Shown here: positions 27,442 to 43,657 of the stretch, in pieces
Layout of the letters: each line of letters opens with the position of its first letter
Position numbering within the stretch: position 1 is the stretch's first letter
Assembly (NCBI GenBank): GCA_021736475.1
Contig: JAIPFV010000008.1
Coordinates: 1-52,458 of the forward strand
From: Spirochaetia bacterium
GTDB taxonomy: Bacteria > Spirochaetota > Spirochaetia > DSM-16054 > Sediminispirochaetaceae
Length of the DNA stretch: 52,458 nucleotides
Direction: 5' to 3'
Made by a program: the position numbers and the translations under genes
The notes under the pieces: generated by a model
Seen by the model: the letters and a program-made list of their open reading frames with translations, nothing else
Databases searched by the model: none
Told to the model about the DNA's origin: nothing

Positions 27442-28371
27442 TTATCCCCCGTTTTCAAACAACCATGTTGAAAGGTACCTTTCTCCAGCATCCGGCAGCA
27501 GAGCAACGATGAGCTTGCCACTGTTCTCTGGACGTTTTGCAAGCTCTAACGCGGCTTGGAGGGCGGCTCCCGATGAAACCCCTACTAATATTCCCTCTTC
27601 AACTGCTAATCTTCGTGCGATCTCACCTGCGGACTCGTCCTTCATTCTAATAACCTCATCGATTACATCTGTCTTAAGTACCTCCGGCAAAAATCCTGCT
27701 CCGATTCCTTGAATTTTATGGGGACCCGGCTCGCCTCCTGAGATAACCGGAGATTTTTCCGGCTCGACAGCTACTACCTGCACAGTTGCTTTGCGTTTTT
27801 TCAATTCCTCGCCTACACCGGTAATGGTTCCACCGGTTCCGACCCCGGCAACAAAAATGTCAACACTGCCCTCCGTATCCCTCCATATCTCATCCGCGGT
27901 AGTTTTACGGTGCATATCGGGATTTGCCGGATTTGAAAATTGTTGAGGTATGAAGCTACCATCAATGGAAGATTGCAGCTCTTCGGCTTTTGCAATAGCT
28001 CCCTTCATTCCCTGTTTCCCATCGGTTAGCACGAGCTCTGCCCCTAGAGCTTTTAAGAGCTTCCGCCGTTCAATGCTCATTGTATCGGGCATGGTAAGGA
28101 TAACCTTGTATCCTTTTGCGGCGCCCACATAGGCCAGTGCAATTCCTGTGTTTCCGCTGGTCGGTTCGATAATCACCGAGCCGGGGTGCAACACACCGCG
28201 TTTTTCAGCTTCGTCTATCATGGCAAAACCGATGCGATCTTTGACACTGGAGAGCGGGTTGAAGGACTCAAGTTTTACTGCCACTTTTGCCGCACCACCC
28301 TTGTTGAGCTTATTAATACGGACGAGGGGTGTGTTACCGATTAAATCTGTAATGTTATCTGCAATATTCAT
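27442..28371 (-). CDS. cysK: Cysteine synthase A (O-acetylserine sulfhydrylase)
   Basis: This 309-residue PLP enzyme makes cysteine from O-acetylserine and sulfide. PLP lysine is Lys44 ([11 protein letters not shown]); the substrate loop is PTSGNTGI near residue 69, and the phosphate-binding [10 protein letters not shown] lies near 176. [11 protein letters not shown] near 262 and length are typical of CysK rather than CysM. It lies 27 bases downstream of an Rrf2-family regulator gene on the same strand, forming an operon with the promoter at 28857-28885. In Firmicutes, CysK and an Rrf2 protein (CymR) form a regulatory complex, which may also hold here. Confidence 0.93.
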
Positions 28372-28398
28372 ACTGTCTACCTCTCTTGATTTGTGTAC

Positions 28399-28809
28399 CT
28401 ATATAACATAGGTAAATTGACGGTTCCGGTTATTCTGAACCACAGTTTCCAAATTTATGCTCTCTAGATAATCCGAAATGGCCTTATCAAGACCGCTCCA
28501 CACATCCCATGTAGGGTTTAATGGATTCTGTATGTCTTCCACCGGGGATGCATCACCCTCCAGCACATCAACGATCTGTTTGACCGTGATTTTTTTCGGC
28601 TCGCATGCAAGGCTATAGCCGCCACGTGCCCCTCTATAGGTATTAATAAGGCCACTGCTCTTGAGAGGAATGACCAGTTTACTAAGGTATTTCTCCGAAA
28701 TATTCTGTCGCTCGGCAATATCTCTAAGCAAAACCGGTCTTTCCTTACTGTGAAGTGCCAGTTCAAACATGAACTGTAAACCGTATCGGCTGCGGGTCGA
28801 CATTTTCAT
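28399..28809 (-). CDS. Rrf2-family regulator, CymR-like
   Basis: The 136-residue protein starts with the Rrf2 winged helix (MKMSTRSRYGLQFMFELALH, recognition region ISEKYLSKLVIPLKSSGLI, wing RGARGGYSL). It has only one Cys (Cys69), so it cannot hold the three-Cys iron-sulfur cluster of IscR. Its position directly before cysK suggests a CymR-type role in repressing sulfur assimilation genes. The ATG follows GGAGGATAT. An in-frame ATG two codons later is an alternative start. The overlapping divergent promoters upstream could let it also affect the membrane-protein gene at 29024. Confidence 0.88.
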   Translation of the reverse strand: MKMSTRSRYGLQFMFELALHSKERPVLLRDIAERQNISEKYLSKLVIPLKSSGLINTYRGARGGYSLACEPKKITVKQIVDVLEGDASPVEDIQNPLNPTWDVWSGLDKAISDYLESINLETVVQNNRNRQFTYVI

Positions 28810-28856
28810 ATATCCTCCAGGAATTTCATAATTACTACCAAAAAGGTCTACAAAGA

Positions 28857-28885
28857 AGTGTATAAAAACTTACTATAATTGTCAA
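28857..28885 (-). promoter_or_regulatory. Promoter of the Rrf2-cysK operon
   Basis: On the minus strand a perfect TTGACA (28885-28880) is followed after 17 bases by TACACT (28862-28857). The ATG is about 47 bases downstream. Confidence 0.65.
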
Positions 28886-28902
28886 GAATAATCTATATTT
28901 TC

Positions 28903-28932
28903 TTCACAGTTCGTTCACTTTTTTGCTATACT
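28903..28932 (+). promoter_or_regulatory. Promoter copy 1 of a duplicated module
   Basis: TTCACA and TATACT are 18 bases apart. The stretch from here to the ribosome binding site at 28961 aligns with 42645-42704 upstream of the secreted-protein gene, including TTAGG and a shared AACTAAAAC block. It lies back to back with the Rrf2-cysK promoter. Confidence 0.55.
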
Positions 28933-28970
28933 TTAGGGTACGCAACTAAAACCGACTTATAGGAGAGCCT

Positions 28971-28997
28971 ATGGAAGGTGAGAGAGTTTGTAATTAG
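28971..28997 (+). pseudogene. Nine-codon scar of a deleted secreted-protein gene
   Basis: After the shared promoter and an AGGAGAG site, an ATG opens a frame of only eight residues, MEGERVCN. Its GGTGAGAGAGT bases match the inside of the intact gene at 42716 (DGERV, near 42846). This is what an internal deletion of the exported-protein gene would leave. It may still be translated as a short peptide, and may place ribosomes just before the downstream gene at 29024. Confidence 0.55.
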
Positions 28998-29023
28998 AAA
29001 TCAATCTGTGAGGAGCACTATAT

Positions 29024-29395
29024 ATGATGATGAATGGATTTGGATTCGGGTTTCCTTTTTTTATGGGAGGCCCCTTCTTGTGGCTGATAATTGGTCTTGG
29101 CGGGTATTTTATTATGCGCCGTTTCTTTAATTCCAAAGGCAGGAGACAGCAGGCTTCCCCCGATAGAACCCAAAACTATGGGAGAGGTCAAGAATCTATT
29201 GAAACATCCATATATCGCTTAGCCGGAAAACTTGGAGGTACAATTACTGTCTCCGACCTAGTTACACATATGGGTATTGAACCAAAAAGGGCTGAAAAAA
29301 CACTGGAATCTATGGCCGACGGTGTGCGAGTTCGTATGGAAGTGGATGACGCGGGAATAGTGTATTACGAGTTTCCGGAATTGAAATCCAGATAG
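29024..29395 (+). CDS. Small membrane-anchored winged-helix-like protein, copy 1
   Basis: The 123-residue protein starts with a Phe/Gly-rich segment (MMMNGFGFGFPFFMGGPF) and one membrane helix (to about 33), then a polar linker, then a soluble C-terminal domain (about 60-120). The soluble domain (SIYRLAGKLGGTITVSDLVTHMGI, then an EKTLESM helix and a VRVRMEVDDAGIVYYEF wing) looks like a winged helix, so it could bind DNA, RNA or a protein at the membrane. It is a close paralogue of the protein at 43292-43657. ATG follows GAGGAG by eight bases. It converges on copB. I do not recognise a named family. Confidence 0.8.
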   Translation: MMMNGFGFGFPFFMGGPFLWLIIGLGGYFIMRRFFNSKGRRQQASPDRTQNYGRGQESIETSIYRLAGKLGGTITVSDLVTHMGIEPKRAEKTLESMADGVRVRMEVDDAGIVYYEFPELKSR

Positions 29396-29418: not shown

Positions 29419-31416
29419 TTATGATGTCGCTTCTTCAAGCTCCTCCTTCTTTACTCGCAGCAGTTGCGCGTTAACGGCAACAATAACCGTGGACATGGAC
29501 ATGAGAATTGCTCCCACTTCGGGGGACAGAACGATTCCCACGCTGTACAGAACGCCTGCGGCCAGAGGGATGGCGATCACGTTGTAGCCGGTAGCCCATA
29601 TCAGGTTCTGGACCATCTTGCGGTAGGTTGCGCGTCCGAACAGAATCAGTGCCGTGATATCGAGGGGATTGGAGTTTACCAGCACTATATCGGCGGAGGC
29701 AGCGGCAATATCGGTGCCGGAGCCCACCGCCACTCCTATCTGGGCCTGGGCCAGGGCGGGGGAGTCATTTACTCCGTCGCCGGTCATAGCCACGTACTCG
29801 CCCTGTTCCTGCAGTTCCTTGATTTTGTCCTGCTTTTGATCGGGCAGTACCTCGGCGAAATATCCGTCCATGCCGAGTTCCTTTGAAACAGCCTCCGCGG
29901 TTTCACTGTTATCACCGGTGAGCATCCAGCACTTGATTCCCCGTTTCTGCAGGGCTTGGATTGCCTGGTGCGATTCGGGGCGGATAGTGTCGGAGAGGGC
30001 AAGCGAGCCGGCAACCTGCTTATCGACCAATACGAAGACCCTTGTTACGCCGCCCTGTCGGCCGGCATCCTTCGGTTGTTCAAGATTCTGTTCTTCCAGG
30101 TAGCCCGGACTCACCACCGCTATCGACTTTTTATTCACGGTTCCCTGCACGCCCTTGCCTTTGATCGCCTCGAAATTATCGGCCGATCCGATCGAAACAC
30201 CCGCATCTTTAGCGGCGGAGACAATTCCTTTGCCAATCGGATGTTCGGATTGTCCTTCCAGTGCCGCGGCAAAGCTGAGAATATCGTTCTTTTCATACTG
30301 TGTGTCGTGAACATCCACGCTTCCGACCTCGAACACCCCCTTGGTCAATGTACCGGTTTTATCGAAGACAACGGTGGTAATTTTTCGGGCATTCTCGAAG
30401 GCCGTGCGGTTGCGGATCAACAGTCCGTTCTGGGCCGATTTAGCGGTTGACTGGGCCACTACCAGTGGAATTGCTAATCCAAGGGCGTGGGGGCAGGTGA
30501 TAATCATGACCGTGGCCATTCGGGCAATCGAGAACTGAAGCCCCGCTCCGGTTATCAGCCATCCGGCCAGTGTCGCCGCTCCGACGGTAAGTGCAACAAT
30601 GGTGAGCCACATCGCCGCCCGGTCGGAAAGCGCCTGAGTTTTAGATTTCGCGGACTGGGCTTCGCGGACCATGTTGATCACTTTGGACAGGTAAGAATCC
30701 TCTCCGGCTCCTTCCACTTGAAGTTCAAGAGAACCGTCACCGTTGATCGAACCTCCGATCAACTCATCCCCCTCAGCTTTGCTGACCGGACGCGATTCAC
30801 CGGTAAGCATCGATTCGTCAATGTAACTGCTGCCTCTCACAACCTTGCCGTCGGAGGGAATTTTCTCGCCCGGTTTAATTACCAGGACATCTCCCTTTCG
30901 CACTTCCGACAAGGGAATATCTTCGGTCTCTCCATCCTTCTTGCGATGAGCCTCGCTGGGCATGAGTTGGGCGAGTTTCTCCAATGCTGAGGAAGCACTG
31001 ACCACCGAGGCCATTTCGATCCAGTGTCCGGCCAGCATAATTGCGATCAGGGTGGCCAACTCCCAGTAGAAGGGCGTCCCCTCAAGGCCGAAGGTAACCG
31101 CAGCGCTGTATACATAGGCTACGGTGATGGCAAGTCCGATCAGGGTCATCATCCCCGGGACTCTGGATTTGAGTTCATCCACCAGTCCCTTGAGAAATGG
31201 CCAGCCGCCGTACACGAAAATCGCAGTGGCAAGTACAAATACAAACATACTGTCGCCGGTGAATTCGAGGCTGAACCCCAGAAACTGCTGTATCAGCTCC
31301 GAGAGCGCCAGCACAGGTATACTCAATACAAGGGTGATGTAAAATCGCTTCCTGAAATCACGAATCATCATCCTGTGGTGCTGGGTATGGTCATGGTGAG
31401 TGTGTTCGGTATTCAT
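29419..31416 (-). CDS. copB: Copper-exporting P1B-type ATPase, CopB subtype
   Basis: The 665-residue P-type ATPase has a His-rich N-terminus (HTHHDHTQHH, residues 5-14) instead of CxxC metal domains, and a CPH metal site in the membrane (Cys308-Pro-His310), which mark the CopB subtype (Cu(II)/Ag or Cu(I) efflux). Other motifs are the TGES actuator loop near 205, the phosphorylated Asp352 in DKTGTLTKG, an HP motif (SEHPIGKG) and GDGVNDSPAL. About eight helices are visible. It is the last gene of a copper-type cluster and has its own promoter with an overlapping palindrome (31431-31471). Confidence 0.92.
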   Translation of the reverse strand: MNTEHTHHDHTQHHRMMIRDFRKRFYITLVLSIPVLALSELIQQFLGFSLEFTGDSMFVFVLATAIFVYGGWPFLKGLVDELKSRVPGMMTLIGLAITVAYVYSAAVTFGLEGTPFYWELATLIAIMLAGHWIEMASVVSASSALEKLAQLMPSEAHRKKDGETEDIPLSEVRKGDVLVIKPGEKIPSDGKVVRGSSYIDESMLTGESRPVSKAEGDELIGGSINGDGSLELQVEGAGEDSYLSKVINMVREAQSAKSKTQALSDRAAMWLTIVALTVGAATLAGWLITGAGLQFSIARMATVMIITCPHALGLAIPLVVAQSTAKSAQNGLLIRNRTAFENARKITTVVFDKTGTLTKGVFEVGSVDVHDTQYEKNDILSFAAALEGQSEHPIGKGIVSAAKDAGVSIGSADNFEAIKGKGVQGTVNKKSIAVVSPGYLEEQNLEQPKDAGRQGGVTRVFVLVDKQVAGSLALSDTIRPESHQAIQALQKRGIKCWMLTGDNSETAEAVSKELGMDGYFAEVLPDQKQDKIKELQEQGEYVAMTGDGVNDSPALAQAQIGVAVGSGTDIAAASADIVLVNSNPLDITALILFGRATYRKMVQNLIWATGYNVIAIPLAAGVLYSVGIVLSPEVGAILMSMSTVIVAVNAQLLRVKKEELEEATS

Positions 31417-31660: not shown

Positions 31661-32056
31661 TTATTTGGTCGTCAAGCGATCAATTACTTTCTGCAATTTG
31701 TCTTTGATCTCACCGGCGATCGTTTCAATCTCCGTATTGGAAACCCCCTGCATTGAAGCCTGCGGGTCAACCGCAGCAACTTCGATTGAGTTAGGTTCAA
31801 TTTCCTGCACGATCACATTACAGGGAAGCAGGGTTCCGATTTTATCCTCGGCCTGCAGAGCCTTATGTGAAAAGGGAGGATTGCATGCCCCCAGTATTCG
31901 GTACTTACGAAAATCAACTCCGAGCTTTTTTTGTAAGGTTGCTTCGACATCGATATCGGACAGCACTCCGAAACCTTCCTCTGCCAGCTCCGATTTTACT
32001 TGTTCGATTGTCGCCTCAAAATCTCCGTTTACCTTTGTGCTCATATAATATTTCAT
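31661..32056 (-). CDS. DUF302 family protein
   Basis: The 131-residue protein is a DUF302 domain: MKYYMSTKVNGDFEATIEQVKSEL at the start (read in parts), a GFGVLSDIDVEATLQKKLG segment, YRILGACNPPFSHKAL near residue 55 with one Cys, and LLPCNVIVQE near 80 with a second Cys. No signal peptide or membrane helix is present. DUF302 proteins are common near copper and sulfur genes and are often described as heavy-metal or redox-linked, but their reaction is unknown. The two conserved Cys could bind copper. It lies between the SHOCT peptide and the small membrane peptide. Confidence 0.85.
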   Translation of the reverse strand: MKYYMSTKVNGDFEATIEQVKSELAEEGFGVLSDIDVEATLQKKLGVDFRKYRILGACNPPFSHKALQAEDKIGTLLPCNVIVQEIEPNSIEVAAVDPQASMQGVSNTEIETIAGEIKDKLQKVIDRLTTK

Positions 32057-32185: not shown

Positions 32186-32710
32186 TTAACGCTTCAAATC
32201 TTCTATGGCCTGCAGGTACTCTTCGCGGCTGATTTCACCACGGGCGTAGCGCTGTTTCAGAACCTCTTCAGGTGAGTTATAGGGGATCGACTGGGCGGCA
32301 GACCCATTTTGGCTCCATCCACGACCCATCATTCCGGGGCCCATCATTCCCATGCGTCCCCCACGGTAGCCGTACTCCGAACCGTCCGTGAGATATCTGT
32401 ATCCCATCCAGCGGTGGGCCGATGCCAGGGACTCGGAACCTTCACCGCCCATCATTCTGTCCATCCATGAATGAACGCTCTCGTTGGGGTGAACCTCCGA
32501 CATAACGGCATCACCGAGTTCTTCGAGTAGCGGGTCAGGGACCTTTTCAGGATCAATAGTCTCCTCTGAACTCAGCCCCATCTTATTCCGAATCTCATTG
32601 ATTACCTGATTTGGATTTGCGGAATGTTCGTCGGACTGGGTGTCGGAGAGCGACCACGCCAATACTGCAACTGTTAATAAAGCTAAAGATAAAATTACTG
32701 TGCGTTTCAT
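32186..32710 (-). CDS. Exported Met/Gly-rich SHOCT-domain protein
   Basis: The 174-residue protein has a signal peptide (MKRTVILSLALLTVAVLAWSL), a helical Glu/Asp-rich region (about 30-110), a Met/Gly-rich patch RMGMMGPGMMGRGW near residue 122, and a C-terminal SHOCT motif (EVLKQRYARGEISREEY). Methionine-rich patches in exported proteins are typical Cu(I) ligands. It is the first structural gene after the two-component pair, with direct repeats upstream that look like a binding site for the OmpR-type regulator. The seven-residue GPGMMGR patch recurs at the end of the exported protein at 42716-43225. A periplasmic copper-binding role is likely but inferred. Confidence 0.78.
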   Translation of the reverse strand: MKRTVILSLALLTVAVLAWSLSDTQSDEHSANPNQVINEIRNKMGLSSEETIDPEKVPDPLLEELGDAVMSEVHPNESVHSWMDRMMGGEGSESLASAHRWMGYRYLTDGSEYGYRGGRMGMMGPGMMGRGWSQNGSAAQSIPYNSPEEVLKQRYARGEISREEYLQAIEDLKR

Positions 32711-32736: not shown

Positions 32737-32775
32737 AGTATGAATATAGGGAAGGAGTATGAAGCTAAGTTGAAG
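32737..32775 (-). promoter_or_regulatory. Direct-repeat operator for the OmpR-type copper regulator
   Basis: On the minus strand the core TTC recurs four times at 11, 10 and 9 base intervals. Two copies are the exact octamer TTCATACT (32763-32756 and 32744-32737), and TTCAACT lies at 32774-32768. Helical-turn direct repeats are the usual pattern for OmpR/PhoB-family regulators. The SHOCT protein ATG is 27 bases downstream. Confidence 0.55.
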
Positions 32776-32800: not shown

Positions 32801-33916
32801 TTAGTTGTTCAGGGGAAGAGTGAAATAAAAACGGCTGCCTCTGTGCAGTCCGGGGCTTTCAGCCTGCAAACTGCCTCCGTGGGCTTTGATAATATGATGT
32901 GCTATTGTCAGACCGATACCACTTCCACCGCCGACGCGGGACCGGGATTTATCAACCCGGTAGAATCTTTCGAAAATTTGATCTATCTCACTATCACTTA
33001 GACCAATACCGTTATCTTCGACACCGCAGACTATCATATCGTGTTTGGACTCAGCATAGATTTGAACCGAGCCATGGGGAGGCGTATACTGTAGAGCATT
33101 GCCGAGAAGGTTGATGAGTACCTGCTGTATGCGTTCCCGATCAGCCTTTACTCTGAGTGCAGACTCCGGGAGTTCAATTTTAAGGTCGATCTGCTTTTCC
33201 GAGAACTGGGGTTTTAACCTTAGCACAACTTGTTCCAGTAGATTGTTCAGGTCGAACTCTTTTATATTCAGTTTTATCTGCCCCGATTCCGCCTGTGATA
33301 GATTCTCTAAGTCCCCGACAAGACGTTGTAATCGTGTAAGTTCGGTCTGAACCGCCGAGTATGTAGAAAAATCCGCCGGCAATACCCCGTCGATCATACC
33401 CTCCATAAGGCTGCGCATTGAAGCAAGAGGAGTCCTTAATTCGTGGGCGACATTGCCAATGAGCTCAATGCGGCGGGTTTCAGTGGAATGCAGCTCCTCC
33501 GCCATCCGATTGAAGTTTTGGGCCAGCTCGCCAATTTCGTCATCCCATACGAAGTGGGCCCGCTGGCGGTAATCTCCGTCTGCAATCTGTACCACCGTTT
33601 TTATCATCGAGCGGATGGGAAAAACTATTCGCCAGGCGACAAAACTACTAATTATAACGGCTGCAAGTAAGGCACCGGACGCAGCGATTAGGAGAACCTC
33701 ATTTAGGGCAGCCTGAAAAGTGTTCATTAAATTCTGTCGTAACACATCGCTCTCACCAATGAGGTGCTCCATCTGCCGGATATGCTGGTTCAATGCATAC
33801 GGTGCTTGTAGGCGGGCGGTGAGCAACAGGATAACAACCCCAACCCCGATTACTATTAGATGTGAAACAAAGATTTTGCGGCCTAAACGGCTTGTCAGCA
33901 GTTCTTTTATTTTCAC
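32801..33916 (-). CDS. Sensor histidine kinase of the copper locus
   Basis: The 371-residue kinase has two membrane helices (about 14-33 and 73-95) around a short periplasmic loop of ~40 residues, a HAMP domain (about 96-150), a HisKA domain with phospho-His158 (NVAHELRTPLAS), and a HATPase domain (DNGIGLSD N/G boxes, GSGIGLTIAHHIIKAHGG). The small loop has a His and Met (HIRQMEHL) that could bind metal. It starts at a GTG overlapping the stop of the regulator gene (GTGA). The pair probably senses periplasmic copper or envelope stress and controls the downstream SHOCT-DUF302-copB genes. Confidence 0.88.
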   Translation of the reverse strand: MKIKELLTSRLGRKIFVSHLIVIGVGVVILLLTARLQAPYALNQHIRQMEHLIGESDVLRQNLMNTFQAALNEVLLIAASGALLAAVIISSFVAWRIVFPIRSMIKTVVQIADGDYRQRAHFVWDDEIGELAQNFNRMAEELHSTETRRIELIGNVAHELRTPLASMRSLMEGMIDGVLPADFSTYSAVQTELTRLQRLVGDLENLSQAESGQIKLNIKEFDLNNLLEQVVLRLKPQFSEKQIDLKIELPESALRVKADRERIQQVLINLLGNALQYTPPHGSVQIYAESKHDMIVCGVEDNGIGLSDSEIDQIFERFYRVDKSRSRVGGGSGIGLTIAHHIIKAHGGSLQAESPGLHRGSRFYFTLPLNN

Positions 33917-34596
33917 TGTTCCCCCTCGAAACGATAGCCGCTTCCGCGAACAGTTGTAATGTATTCCCTGTCTTCCTCGGATAGCCTCATCTTATTGCGT
34001 AACCGGCGGATATGTACATCAACTACGCGCTCTTCGATAAAATATTCATCTCCCCACACATGCTCGATCAGTTGATCACGGCTGAGCACTCGGCCACTGT
34101 TTTCCATCAAAGTGAGTAGCAAATCAAACTCAATCCGGGTGAGCTCGAGTTCATGTCCTTCCCGCCAGGCTCTTCTGGCGGCCGGATCGATAGAAAACTC
34201 GCCACTCTGTATCGTCTCAAGTTCATTGTCGCTCTGTTTTCTCTGTCGACGGACGATTGCCTGCACCCGGGCTACCAACTCGCGGGGACTGAAGGGTTTT
34301 TGAACGTAATCGTCGGCCCCCATTTTAAGACCGATTATCCGGTCGTCTTCGCTCGTTTTAGCAGTTAGTAATACGATATAAGGGTCGGCGTTTCGCCTGA
34401 GTTCCCGCAATACCTCCAGTCCGTCAATTCCAGGGAGCATTATATCCAATACCACCACATCCGGTCTAAATGTACGGGCGATCGTAAGCGCCTGCTGTCC
34501 TTCGAGGGCGCTTTTGACCTCATAGCCCTCGCGCTCGAAATAGGCTTGAACTGTAGTTACGATGGCGGTTTCATCATCCACGACCAATATCTTCAT
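33913..34596 (-). CDS. OmpR-family response regulator of the copper locus
   Basis: The ~227-residue product has a receiver domain (phospho-Asp51 in VVVLDIMLPGIDG, Lys in VQKPFSPREL) and a C-terminal winged helix of the OmpR type (ELTRIEFDLLLTLMENSGRVLSRDQLIEHVWG, cited in parts, and VDVHIRRLRNKM). I choose the ATG at 34596 (MKILVVDDE), which follows AGAGGTGGG; the frame also has a TTG two codons upstream. It is the first gene of the locus and overlaps the kinase by four bases. Its likely DNA target is the set of direct repeats at 32737-32775. Confidence 0.92.
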   Translation of the reverse strand: MKILVVDDETAIVTTVQAYFEREGYEVKSALEGQQALTIARTFRPDVVVLDIMLPGIDGLEVLRELRRNADPYIVLLTAKTSEDDRIIGLKMGADDYVQKPFSPRELVARVQAIVRRQRKQSDNELETIQSGEFSIDPAARRAWREGHELELTRIEFDLLLTLMENSGRVLSRDQLIEHVWGDEYFIEERVVDVHIRRLRNKMRLSEEDREYITTVRGSGYRFEGEQ

Positions 34597-34620
34597 GTGC
34601 AACCCACCTCTCCATAATTC

Positions 34621-38327: not shown

Positions 38328-40541
38328 ATGGCTCAGATGAAAATGCGTACAAAGATCACAGGCGGCTTCGTGCTGATGATAGCGCTCTTGCTGCTTGTAA
38401 GCGGAGTTGCTGTGTATTTCCTGAACCGGGCGTCTTCAGATTTCGTTCAGTACAGGGAATGGGCGGTCGATTCGAACATGGTAAATGAACTTCAAGAAAA
38501 CATGTTAATGGTCCGGATGAATGTGAAGGATTTTCTCATCAGAGGGGAAGAGAAAGAGGTGGAAGAGGTCAATGAGTATTATGAGGAGACAGTCTCTCTT
38601 GTTGATACTGCCCAGGAAAGTATTCAGGACCCCGAACGCATCCCCCTTGTTGATACGATCGATGAGGAACTGAAGCAGTATAAGGGGTATTTTGAACAGG
38701 TGGTTGAACTTCAGTACCAGCGAGATGAGAGGGTGATAAACGGTATGGATGTGGTGGGGCCGGAGATCGAAGAGGACCTTACCGCCATTCTCACCTCTGC
38801 CGAGGAAGATGGAGACATGGTGGCAGCCTACTACAGCAGTTTAGCTCTGCGGAATATAATGCTTGTCCGGCTCTATGCATTTAAATTTCTCGATTCCAAT
38901 ACCAAAGAAGATGAGCAGCGAGTTCTTACCGAATTGGAGAGTTTTGATAAAAATCTGTCGATACTCGACAGTGAGGTACAGAATCCAGAGAGACTGGCGT
39001 TGCTGCAGGAGGTCCGGGAGGGAGAGAATAAATACCATACCTATTTTAACGAAGTTACATCTATTATCTACGAGCGCAACGACTATGTGACCAACTATCT
39101 GGATGTAATCGGACCGGATATTGCAGATGTAGGTCAGCAGATTATTGCCTCAATTACCGCCGACCAGGACCGTTTGGGACCTGCGCTTCAGGCAGCCAAC
39201 CAGAGGGCAATCATGATTGCCATAGCAGTATCGATCGTTGCATTGGTACTCGGTGTTTTCCTGACCCTCTTCATCACCGGAAGCATTCTCAAACAGTTAG
39301 GGGCTGATCCCTCTGTAATTGAGGAAATTGCAGGCCGTATTGCTATTGGAGACCTTGATATACAAATAAGGGATGAGAACATAAAAGGCGTGTATCAGTC
39401 GGTTAAGGAGATGGTCGACGCCCTTCGCTACAAGGCTAGTATAATTGAGCAGGTGGCCAACAAAGATCTTTCCGTAGAAATCGATGTAGCCTCCGATAAG
39501 GACGTACTTGGCAAATCGCTGGTTACCATGAAAGAAGCGCTGAACGAACTGCTCGGCCAGGTAAACAGTTCGGTGGAGCAGGTGAACAGCGGGGCCGACC
39601 AGGTAAGCCAGGCCAGCCAGAACCTCAGTCAGGGGGCCACCGAACAGGCCAGCAGCCTTGAGGAGATCACAAGTTCCACCAACGAGATCAACAGCCAGTC
39701 TAAACAGAATGCAGAGAATGCCACCGAAGCCCACGGTATAGCCAAACAGGCTACCGAGGATGCTGAGAAGGGCAACGCCCAGATGCAGCAGCTCAACGAG
39801 AGTATGGAGAAGATAAACGCCTCCAGCGATGAGATCAACAAAGTGGTAAAGGTAATAGACGACATCGCCTTCCAGATAAACCTTTTGGCCCTTAACGCCA
39901 ACGTAGAGGCAGCCCGGGCCGGTAAATACGGGAAGGGTTTTGCCGTAGTGGCCGACGAGGTGCGGAACCTGGCGGTAAAGAGTACCGATTCGGTAAAAGA
40001 AACCACCCGAATGGTAGAAGATACGGTGACCAATATTAGACAGGGTACCGAAGCGGCGGAGGCGACTGCCCAGCAGCTCACTGCTATAGTGGACGGTTCG
40101 GGAAAGGTGGCGAACTTTTTAGAGGAGATAGCCCAGGCGAGCCGTGAGCAAGCCCAGGCTATAGAGCAAATTACCGAGGGGCTTGATCAGATTGATGAGG
40201 CCACCCAGGCAAGTACCGCAAGTGCCGAGGAGAGCGCATCGGCCTCCGAAGAACTGGCCGGACAGGCCCAGCAGCTAAGAAGTATGGTTGCTCAGTTCAC
40301 CCTGGACAGCCGCTACTCCGGTGGACAAAGATTGCTCGCGCAAGGCAGTCATTTGAACAAGCTCGGGCATCAGCAACAGGGCTCTTCACAGAAACGGCAG
40401 AAGCCCCAACAAAAAACACAACAGAATTCTACCGCGGGTTGGAATAATAAGGGCCAAAAGGCTAAGAATGAGACAGGGATCACCCCGGTAAAACCGGAAG
40501 ACCAGATATCCCTTGAGGATGATGATTTTGACCGATTCTAA
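38328..40541 (+). CDS. Methyl-accepting chemotaxis protein with helical (HBM-type) sensor
   Basis: The 737-residue chemoreceptor has a first membrane helix (about 12-32), a large all-helical periplasmic domain (about 35-285) with the repeated four-helix layout of HBM sensors, a second helix (about 287-315), HAMP, and a long signalling domain with the tip [33 protein letters not shown] near residue 520 (cited as match). The C-terminus has a Gln/Lys-rich linker and an acidic end DDDFDRF, which could be a tether for CheR/CheB. HBM receptors bind organic acids such as TCA intermediates in other bacteria. It is followed by cheW. Confidence 0.92.
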
Positions 40542-40579
40542 GAATATTTTAACAATGAAAAGAGGCACTGGAGGCGGAT

Positions 40580-41092
40580 ATGAGTAAAGAAGAGATGCAG
40601 GACAGTGATTTTTTTGATGAGACCGATGATGAGATCCAAGAGAACAAGTTCCTTATGTGTAAGATAGGAGAAGAGACCTACGGGATCGACATACAACATG
40701 TAACCGACATCATAGAACTGCAGAAAATCACTGAAGTGCCGGATATGCCCGAGTATGTAAGGGGAGTGATAAATCTGCGGGGCAAGGTAATACCGGTAAT
40801 AGACATGCGACTGCGTTTTGGTATGGATTCGAAGGAGTTTGATGACCGGACGGTAATAACTGTGGTCAATATAAAAAGCTACTCAATTGGTTTTATTATA
40901 GATACAGCCACCGAAGTAGTGGACATTCCCGAGAAAGACATTGATCCTCCGCCAACGTTTCAGGAAAATGGGGAGGGTAATAAATACATTGCCGGATTGG
41001 GAAAACTGGAAGATCAGGTAATTATTTTGCTTGATATGGAAAAACTCGTTGGAGAAAAAGAGATCGAGTCTATTCAGTCCGGTGTGAGCTAA
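40580..41092 (+). CDS. cheW: Chemotaxis coupling protein CheW
   Basis: The 170-residue protein is a CheW domain (about 22-160): KFLMCKIGEETYGIDIQHVTDII, VPDMPEYVRGVINLRGKVIPVIDMRLRFG and a C-terminal KLEDQVIILLDMEKLV (each a family hallmark). CheW links receptors to the CheA kinase. The N-terminal ~20 residues are acidic and probably disordered. It lies 38 bases after the MCP gene with a GGAGGCG site, and a strong terminator follows, so receiver-MCP-cheW forms one unit. No CheA is in the window, so it must serve an array encoded elsewhere. Confidence 0.95.
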   Translation: MSKEEMQDSDFFDETDDEIQENKFLMCKIGEETYGIDIQHVTDIIELQKITEVPDMPEYVRGVINLRGKVIPVIDMRLRFGMDSKEFDDRTVITVVNIKSYSIGFIIDTATEVVDIPEKDIDPPPTFQENGEGNKYIAGLGKLEDQVIILLDMEKLVGEKEIESIQSGVS

Positions 41093-41224: not shown

Positions 41225-41431
41225 ATGAAAACAGAGCAACAGCCTCTAATTGAAGTAGTAGAAGATAAATGCGTAAACTGTCATCGTTGCATTAGTGTTT
41301 GCCCGGTAAAGATGTGCAACAACGGCTCAGGGGATCATGTAGAGGTAAACCACGATTTGTGTATGGGTGCCAGCGGTTTTTCCGCACCCCAAGGATATAA
41401 TGGAATTAGCAGAGGTAAATATATTTCATGA
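41225..41431 (+). pseudogene. Truncated [4Fe-4S] ferredoxin-like N-terminus of a larger sensor/hydrogenase-like gene
   Basis: The frame encodes 68 residues. It starts like the ferredoxin part of spirochaetal proteins that join a 2[4Fe-4S] domain to an iron-hydrogenase-like domain: EDKCVNCHRCISVCPVKMC, then VNHDLCMG. The second cluster motif should continue with further Cys, but instead the frame turns into ASGFSAPQGYNGISRGKYIS and stops. The stop overlaps the ATG of the next gene (ATGA), so this tail may be the original C-terminus joined by an internal deletion. Only one complete Cys motif remains, so the product is unlikely to do the full protein's work. Confidence 0.65.
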
Positions 41432-41694
41432 GAGTCGGTAATCTCAAGGTCGAAGGAAAGATTATTCTCGTAATTATACCCTTTATTATCAGCATTATCC
41501 TTGTGCTTTCATTGCTGGATGGATATGCGATGCGGCGGTTATACAGAACGTCGATGTCCACTTATCTCAATCATCTACTTGAGATGTACATTCATGAATA
41601 TCCTCGGCATCTGCAAGGATTATTGGAGGATAACGGACTCGATGAGGCCGCTCTCATTCGATCAAAAAAAGGATCATTTTGTTGTAGCATGTAG
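41428..41694 (+). pseudogene. Truncated N-terminus of a membrane sensor (Cache-type) gene
   Basis: The 88-residue frame begins with a cytoplasmic start (MRVGNLKVEGK), a strong membrane helix (IILVIIPFIISIILVLSLL, about 12-30) and then the first helix of a periplasmic sensor (RTSMSTYLNHLLEMYIHEY). It breaks off after ~85 residues in the unlike sequence GSFCCSM. No second membrane helix, HAMP or output domain follows in any frame. It looks like the 5' end of a Cache-type receptor or kinase gene cut by a deletion. It overlaps the ferredoxin-like remnant by four bases, so both pieces belonged to one operon. Confidence 0.6.
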
Positions 41695-42618: not shown

Positions 42619-42644
42619 GCACTACATAAAAATTCCATGTTTCC

Positions 42645-42700
42645 TTCACATTTTGTTTACAATTTTACTCTACATTAGGATCAGAAACTAAAACTGATCC
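42645..42700 (+). promoter_or_regulatory. Promoter copy 2 with perfect inverted repeat
   Basis: TTCACA (42645-42650) and TCTACA (42669-42674) are 18 bases apart and align with promoter copy 1 at 28903. Just downstream GGATCAG (42678-42684) and CTGATCC (42694-42700) form a perfect inverted repeat around AAACTAAAA; this would be an operator at the transcript start or a 5' hairpin. Copy 1 has lost the symmetry. Confidence 0.6.
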
Positions 42701-42715
42701 TTTAGGAGGGGTTAC

Positions 42716-43225
42716 ATGAAACGAAGTATAGTTCTTATGATGTTGGTAGCGATTGTCGGTATGTTCTCTATCTCCGCGGTAATGGCGGAAGGGGCACAAG
42801 AGAGATGGGATGGAACAGCCCCAGCTCAGAGTCCGTACTACGATGGTGAGAGAGTAAGTGTGAGCGGCACGGTCGAGTTGACCGCCGGTGGTGTAGAGCT
42901 GAAGGCGGCCGATGGGCAGGAGTACGAGCTGATGTACCCGCGTTATCTCGCTGAAGATGTGCAGGTAAAAGATGGTGAAACTGTGACGGTAGAAGGCTAT
43001 CTTGTTCCCGGACCGAGATGGGATTGGGGCGAAGATGAGAACCATCTTAGAGTTGACAAAGTTACACTCAACGGAAAAGAGTATGATCTTGCCGCGAACT
43101 TTGGACCTGGGTATGGTTCCCGCGGTGGCTGCTGGGGATACGGAAACGGTAGTTATGGACCCGGGGCACGCGGCTCAATGGGTGGGTATGGCGGCCGAGG
43201 CCCCGGCATGATGGGGCGTTGGTAG
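42716..43225 (+). CDS. Exported small beta-domain protein with Gly/Met-rich tail
   Basis: The 169-residue protein has a signal peptide cleaved after about residue 23 (SAVMA|EGAQ), a beta-rich domain (about 40-125) that resembles an OB-like fold (VSVSGTVELTAGGVELKAADG, TVTVEGYLVPG), and a Gly-rich tail ending RGPGMMGRW. The GPGMMGR patch is shared with the exported copper-locus protein at 32186, suggesting metal binding by methionine. It is followed after a strong hairpin by a membrane winged-helix-like protein. The whole module is duplicated at 28903-29395, where this gene is reduced to a scar. I do not know a named family for it. Confidence 0.75.
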   Translation: MKRSIVLMMLVAIVGMFSISAVMAEGAQERWDGTAPAQSPYYDGERVSVSGTVELTAGGVELKAADGQEYELMYPRYLAEDVQVKDGETVTVEGYLVPGPRWDWGEDENHLRVDKVTLNGKEYDLAANFGPGYGSRGGCWGYGNGSYGPGARGSMGGYGGRGPGMMGRW

Positions 43226-43237
43226 TGCGTAATAGAG

Positions 43238-43268
43238 AACCGGTTGGTGTACAGAGCACCGGCCGGTT
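43238..43268 (+). other. Stable intergenic hairpin between the exported and membrane protein genes
   Basis: AACCGG-TTGGTG pairs with CACCGG-CCGGTT over 12 base pairs with two G-T wobbles and a TACAGAG loop. It is followed by AATTGTATAAAT, not a T run, so partial termination or mRNA processing that sets different levels of the two proteins is more likely than full termination. Confidence 0.6.
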
Positions 43269-43291
43269 AATTGTATAAATAGGGAGTGAAT

Positions 43292-43657
43292 ATGATGATG
43301 CATGGCTTTGGATTTCCCTTCTTTATGGGAGGTCCTTTCGTATGGTTAATTCTTTTAATTGGAGGAAATTTTCTTATTCGAAGATTTATTCTGCCTCATG
43401 TACATGAAGTGTCACGGGGCGGAAGGGGTTATTCAAGGGAATCCTCCTTCGGATCAACGGAGACGAATATTTACCGCTTGGCCGCCACACACAATGGAAA
43501 GGTTACCGTCTCGGATGTGGTTACGGAGTTGGGTATTGAACCAAAGAAAGCGGAGAATATATTGGAGTCTATGAGCGACGGGATGAGAGTACGGATGGAG
43601 GTGAGCGAGGATGGTAATGTCTATTACTCCTTCCCGGAACTGCAAAGACGAGCGTAA
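43292..43657 (+). CDS. Small membrane-anchored winged-helix-like protein, copy 2
   Basis: The 121-residue protein (ATG at 43292, five bases after GGGAG) is a paralogue of the protein at 29024: the same GFGFPFFMGGPF start, a membrane helix (to about 30), a linker that differs, and a conserved C-terminal domain (NIYRLAATHNGKVTVSDVVTELGIEPKKAENILESM, MRVRMEVSEDGNVYYSFPEL; cited as matching blocks). The linker is the fastest-changing part, as expected if the tip regions are under selection. A GTG two codons upstream (43286) would also read in frame. Function is unknown; a role next to copper genes is suggested by its location and by its paralogue. Confidence 0.8.
   Translation: MMMHGFGFPFFMGGPFVWLILLIGGNFLIRRFILPHVHEVSRGGRGYSRESSFGSTETNIYRLAATHNGKVTVSDVVTELGIEPKKAENILESMSDGMRVRMEVSEDGNVYYSFPELQRRA

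Follow-up and report, generated by a model that had tools for sequence, protein, structure and literature searches.

Our analysis reports on a 52,458-nucleotide stretch of DNA from a member of the Spirochaetia (GenBank assembly GCA_021736475.1, contig JAIPFV010000008.1; here the window, contig C17 of a 3.2-Mb draft genome), which carries two related copies of one transcription unit. By comparing them we find it probable that a unit of promoter, leader, a gene for an exported protein (exp) and a gene for a membrane protein (memb) was duplicated in this lineage, and that the exp coding region was then deleted from copy 1. The deletion would have left the promoter, leader, ribosome-binding site and a short in-frame remnant in place, making memb1 the first real gene behind an exp promoter whose box is likely activated by a two-component system encoded on contig C83. 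Copy 1 is thus most likely a promoter switch, in which a membrane winged-helix protein remains part of an envelope regulon of the copper or silver type but has no exported protein as its partner; memb1 would be under metal-stress control and uncoupled from periplasmic Exp, of which copy 2 and a second paralogue on contig C52 would remain sources. The scar represents a minor instance of promoter capture through gene deletion after operon duplication, an ordinary event and a modest evolutionary relic. The poorly described class-wide box and regulon are the more useful part: the exposed promoter element, apparently uncharacterised, predicts a metal-envelope regulon across the Spirochaetia and assigns a likely function and regulator to several nearly unannotated families (exported OB-fold and membrane winged-helix proteins).

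Table 1. Features of the two copies and of the adjoining copper operon, in window coordinates.
Feature	Position	Strand	Description
Copy 1	28903-29395	+	Promoter, leader (~40 nt), RBS, nine-codon frame, 26 nt, memb1
Copy 1 promoter	28903-28931	+	TTCACA-N5-TTCACT, 11-bp period, plus -10-like TATACTTT; presumed response-regulator box
Copy 1 leader and Shine-Dalgarno	28932-28970	+	TAGGAG at 28960-28965; homologous to copy 2 leader
Nine-codon frame	28971-28997	+	MEGERVCN*; ATG GAA GGT GAG AGA GTT TGT AAT TAG; presumed exp remnant
memb1	29024-29395	+	123 aa, one TM helix (residues 18-35), cytoplasmic winged-helix domain (ORF, AlphaFold model, tree)
Copper-translocating P-type ATPase	29419-31416	-	Convergent with memb1; TIGR01511, 612 bits (cut-off 397)
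DUF302 protein, copper operon	31661-32056	-	Pfam PF03625, E = 7e-25
Exported Met/Gly-rich SHOCT protein	32186-32710	-	First gene of copper operon; Pfam PF09851
Box before copper operon	32746-32774	-	TTCAAC-N5-TTCATA-N7-CCTAT, 2 mismatches; intergenic, 36 bp upstream of the start at 32710
Copy 2	42645-43657	+	Promoter, leader, RBS, exp, 66 nt, memb2
Copy 2 promoter element	42645-42673	+	TTCACA-N5-TTTACA-N7-TCTAC
Copy 2 leader and RBS	42674-42715	+	Inverted repeat GGATCAG/CTGATCC at 42678-42700
exp	42716-43225	+	169 aa, signal peptide, OB fold (46-124), disordered Gly/Met-rich tail (ORF, DUF5818, predicted structure)
memb2	43292-43657	+	memb1 paralogue; start at second ATG of listed ORF, RBS just upstream

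The original prediction, made from the letters of the window, held that the promoter, leader and ribosome-binding site of the two copies align and that the membrane proteins downstream are paralogues, and both claims are borne out. Positions 28885-28970 (86 nt) align locally with 42627-42715 (89 nt) at a score of 73, which was not reached once when either side was dinucleotide-shuffled 3000 times. The homology also holds outside the promoter: the leader alone, taken after the -10 element and with the ribosome-binding site excluded, has 18 identities in 23 positions (0/3000 shuffles), and TTAGG...AACTAAAAC is common to both leaders. The score of the operator alone was likewise not reached in 3000 shuffles, and in a DNA pattern search the copy 1 promoter, which aligns with that of copy 2, lies three mismatches from the relaxed box consensus. 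What had been described as a TTCACA-N18 layout we reread as an 11-bp direct repeat, TTCAYA-N5-TTCAYA, placed before a -10 element and without a -35 box; this is the arrangement that response regulators of the OmpR family use, with an orthologue of the C83 system as the candidate activator. The perfect 7-bp inverted repeat in the leader of copy 2 is confined to that copy and may form a hairpin before the ribosome-binding site.

On the other side of the missing exp gene, Memb1 and Memb2 share 57% protein identity over the match (E = 1e-37) and 65% nucleotide identity, and are sisters with 99/99 support in an 81-row tree, so that copy 1 has homologous flanks both 5' (promoter and leader) and 3' (memb paralogue) of the gap. 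A third memb copy, on contig C60, falls outside this pair and clusters weakly (86/87) with memb genes from the same genus and family. The AlphaFold model of the C-terminus has an H-H-H-beta-wing fold (pLDDT about 96 in the domain), and the best-ranked Foldseek matches, none below E = 0.001, include the winged-helix proteins PagR, ArsR and Z-alpha; no Pfam or NCBIfam profile gave a hit above cut-off. A plasmid origin of memb was considered and rejected, there being no match in PLSDB. Our best guess is that Memb is a membrane-tethered regulator or adaptor, and a role in metal homeostasis is plausible.

The exported protein resembles the DUF5818 family of bacterial OB-fold exported proteins in its predicted OB fold and in a single Pfam match (PF19135, E = 2.9e-6) lying just above the cut-off (27.2 against 27 bits); it differs from that family in that only one of 18 Exp homologues matches and in its Gly/Met-rich tail. 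Fold searches returned weak OB-fold-like matches only, and a limited search of open-licence papers yielded none with DUF5818. The paralogue of exp on contig C52 is its sister, with support of 0.99.

The distribution of the box indicates whose promoter was duplicated. The pattern TTCAYA-N5-TTYAYA-N7-YCTAT is found upstream of exp homologues in unrelated families of the Spirochaetia; with up to three mismatches it precedes 39 of 82 exp homologues in the class, against none in shuffled controls, while only one of 84 memb homologues has it, which equals the shuffled control. Because the box accompanies exp homologues in this way, and memb homologues not beyond chance, the sequence comparison assigns the promoter to exp across the class, which is the chief ground for concluding that copy 1 most likely lost exp. 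The leaders point in the same direction, as the copy leader fits the ATCAGA-CTTAA motif found in the exp leaders of genomes G038 and G045. The exact pattern occurs at 28 sites in 395 genomes, the reversed-pattern control at a handful; most of the 28 lie in front of exp or of genes for small SHOCT proteins, for exported DUF2202-like proteins or for an OmpR-type response regulator.

Gene order in relatives bears on how the two genes came together and apart. Of the 395 Spirochaetia genomes, 61 have a homologue of memb and 71 one of exp, and a profile scan of fetched loci covering most of these homologues found the two adjacent in only two genomes: the present one and G284, of another family, where a TTCAAA-N5-TTCACA promoter is followed by exp and, after 15 bp, by memb. 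The memb of G304 is sister to that of G284 and has no exp, so association and separation of the two genes have happened more than once. Since the module is rare, an older free-standing arrangement is likely, and the ancestral exp-memb unit may have arisen recently and in this lineage only. The search of relatives suggested at the outset thus produced an intact promoter-exp-memb unit, but not a counterpart of copy 1: at the DNA level the 395 genomes returned just pieces of memb coding sequence and short matches due to chance.

Between the leader and memb1 lies the nine-codon frame, which the original prediction took for a remnant matching the inside of the exp gene. The best match of the frame in exp is GATGGTGAGAGAGTAAGT (codons 43-48, GAT GGT GAG AGA GTA AGT), with 15 of 18 nucleotides identical and in the same reading frame; it ranks first among 408 overlapping window segments outside the frame itself, by a small margin (63 against 59). 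The correspondence is in frame, but the match is weak: shuffling puts p at about 0.005 when the 27-nt frame is taken alone, at 0.02-0.03 when all 53 nt of the gap are included and at 0.0005-0.007 when the reading frame is respected. Neither the 3' end of exp nor the sequence beyond it is matched significantly by positions 28986-29023, the 3' side of the gap (about 0.1), so that the right-hand boundary of the presumed deletion is invisible. Taken by itself the scar match is weak evidence, which supports a loss of exp and does not decide it.

These data have to be set against the opposite polarity, in which the duplicated unit consisted of promoter, leader and memb, exp was inserted between the leader and memb2, and the likeness of the scar to exp is due to chance. 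The separation of exp and memb in nearly all relatives, the modest p-value of the scar and the unmatched 3' side of the gap all agree with such an insertion. We nevertheless consider it unlikely: the box is a hallmark of exp promoters in relatives, the copy leader is of the exp type, and exp would need to have arrived without a box of its own, exactly behind a box of the same kind. That copy 1 lost exp is the direction of change that the data support best, and we hold it with moderate confidence, because the box marks the exp family, an intact unit exists in G284 and the scar matches exp in frame. The same three observations support the earlier claim that the exported and membrane proteins are separable and that the membrane protein was kept in copy 1.

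Copy 1 adjoins a copper operon that carries the box itself. Exactly three sites within three mismatches occur in the window, before copy 1, the copper operon and copy 2; as 1.3 are expected by chance, their number alone is no evidence, whereas their positions are. The orthologous operon of genome G019 (locus L113; SHOCT-exported, DUF302, copper ATPase), again with the SHOCT gene first, has a box with one mismatch. Elsewhere the box precedes genes for small SHOCT membrane proteins, exported DUF2202-like proteins (a name that comes from sequence inspection, not from a profile match), a Met/Gly-rich exported protein and an HMA-domain transporter-like protein; in the present genome a further box stands before an exported DUF2202-like gene on contig C136. 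Two promoter-like sites with three mismatches on contigs C14 and C70 were set aside, one lying inside an unrelated frame and the other before no related gene. Since the copper operon shares the box and copper-linked relatives of memb exist, the position of copy 1 beside the copper locus is probably no accident. At C136 (L269) the DUF2202-like gene is followed by a gene for a polyferredoxin membrane protein resembling NapH/CcoG, which might reduce or handle copper.

The occurrence of the box before genes other than exp, including the copper operon of the window, means that memb1 could have acquired its box independently. Membership of a shared regulon alone could also explain the likeness of the two promoters, with no common exp-memb ancestor beyond the duplication of memb; this reading is distinctly improbable, given that the leaders of the two copies are homologous outside the operator too, unlike that of the copper operon in the window, and that sister memb genes follow both. 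It is more improbable still that the nine codons, which may be translated, are a functional leader peptide or translational-coupling device and no scar: the frame has a good Shine-Dalgarno sequence at proper spacing and stops 26 nt before the memb1 start, but an intact ribosome-binding site is expected anyway after a deletion limited to the exp coding region, codons 43-48 of exp resemble the frame, and a DNA-level search of 395 Spirochaetia found no comparable frame.

The regulator of the box can be sought among the genes that the box accompanies. The box precedes genes for OmpR-type response regulators in genomes G033, G008, G025 and G129, and exp adjoins one in G038. These box-carrying or box-adjoining regulators are closest to the product of C83:20337-21032 in the present genome, at 52-56% identity compared with at most 42% for the next. 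The two-component system of the window itself (32801-34602) was rejected as the box regulator because the box-linked regulators, to which its regulator has just 38-42% identity, are C83 orthologues. These sequence relationships make an orthologue of the C83 system the most likely activator of the box; the C83 locus itself (L266, G000 C83:16500-22500) lacks a clear box upstream. The C83 kinase has a Met-rich extracytoplasmic loop, GMNPMGAMGQMGHMG, and such loops are also present in the kinases of G038 (RQMMRGMMRQNNRM) and G025. Met-rich sensor loops are typical of Cu(I)/Ag(I) sensing, and by analogy with Met motifs in copper proteins the loop suggests a Cu(I) or Ag(I) signal.

Tandem activator boxes of the PhoB/OmpR type include the PhoB box, the tor boxes of TorR and the WalR box. 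The box described here shares with them two direct hexamer repeats, one helical turn apart and just upstream of a -10 element, in place of a -35 box; it differs in that TTCAYA-N5-TTCAYA-N7-YCTAT is tied to metal-envelope genes in the Spirochaetia and is a predicted site with a candidate regulator. The likeness to the copper envelope two-component systems CusRS and CopRS lies in an OmpR-type regulator, a periplasmic sensor with a Met-rich loop, and a copper ATPase and Met-rich exported proteins among the likely targets. Unlike those systems, no CusCFBA efflux was seen, and the C83 proteins are assigned by orthology only; the CusR site is a palindrome, whereas the box is a direct repeat. From these comparisons we tentatively put forward the possibility of an undescribed Cu/Ag envelope regulon across the Spirochaetia, in which the TTCAYA-N5-TTCAYA box and an OmpR/Met-rich-kinase pair would co-induce exported OB-fold, DUF2202-like and SHOCT proteins, and into which a membrane-tethered winged-helix protein would have been captured through deletion of the upstream gene. 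A limited search of open-licence papers returned nothing relevant on DUF302, SHOCT and copper, on spirochaete copper two-component systems or on TTCATA direct repeats.

Relatives of memb directly adjoin a copper ATPase in L083 and L086. Other spirochaete copper loci (L086/L129 and L089) appear to be under CsoR. They resemble the present locus in having relatives of memb beside a copper ATPase or, in L089, divergent from a SHOCT exported protein; they differ in that memb stands beside csoR (L086/L129) behind CsoR-like palindromes, read by eye, and not behind the TTCAYA box. These palindromes, located before memb genes beside copper genes at L086 5562-6384 and L089 5700-6000, suggest to the eye an alternative copper control of the memb family in two relatives.

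Divergent from copy 1, at 27442-28809, lies a cysK-like gene with a CymR/IscR-like Rrf2 regulator, and the intergenic gap at 28810-28902 may therefore carry a second regulatory input to memb1. An MCP and CheW pair at 38328-41092 of the window closely resembles another such pair on contig C14 (L009), and an 88-aa frame at 41428-41694 has the look of a membrane sensor or chemoreceptor truncated to its N-terminus.
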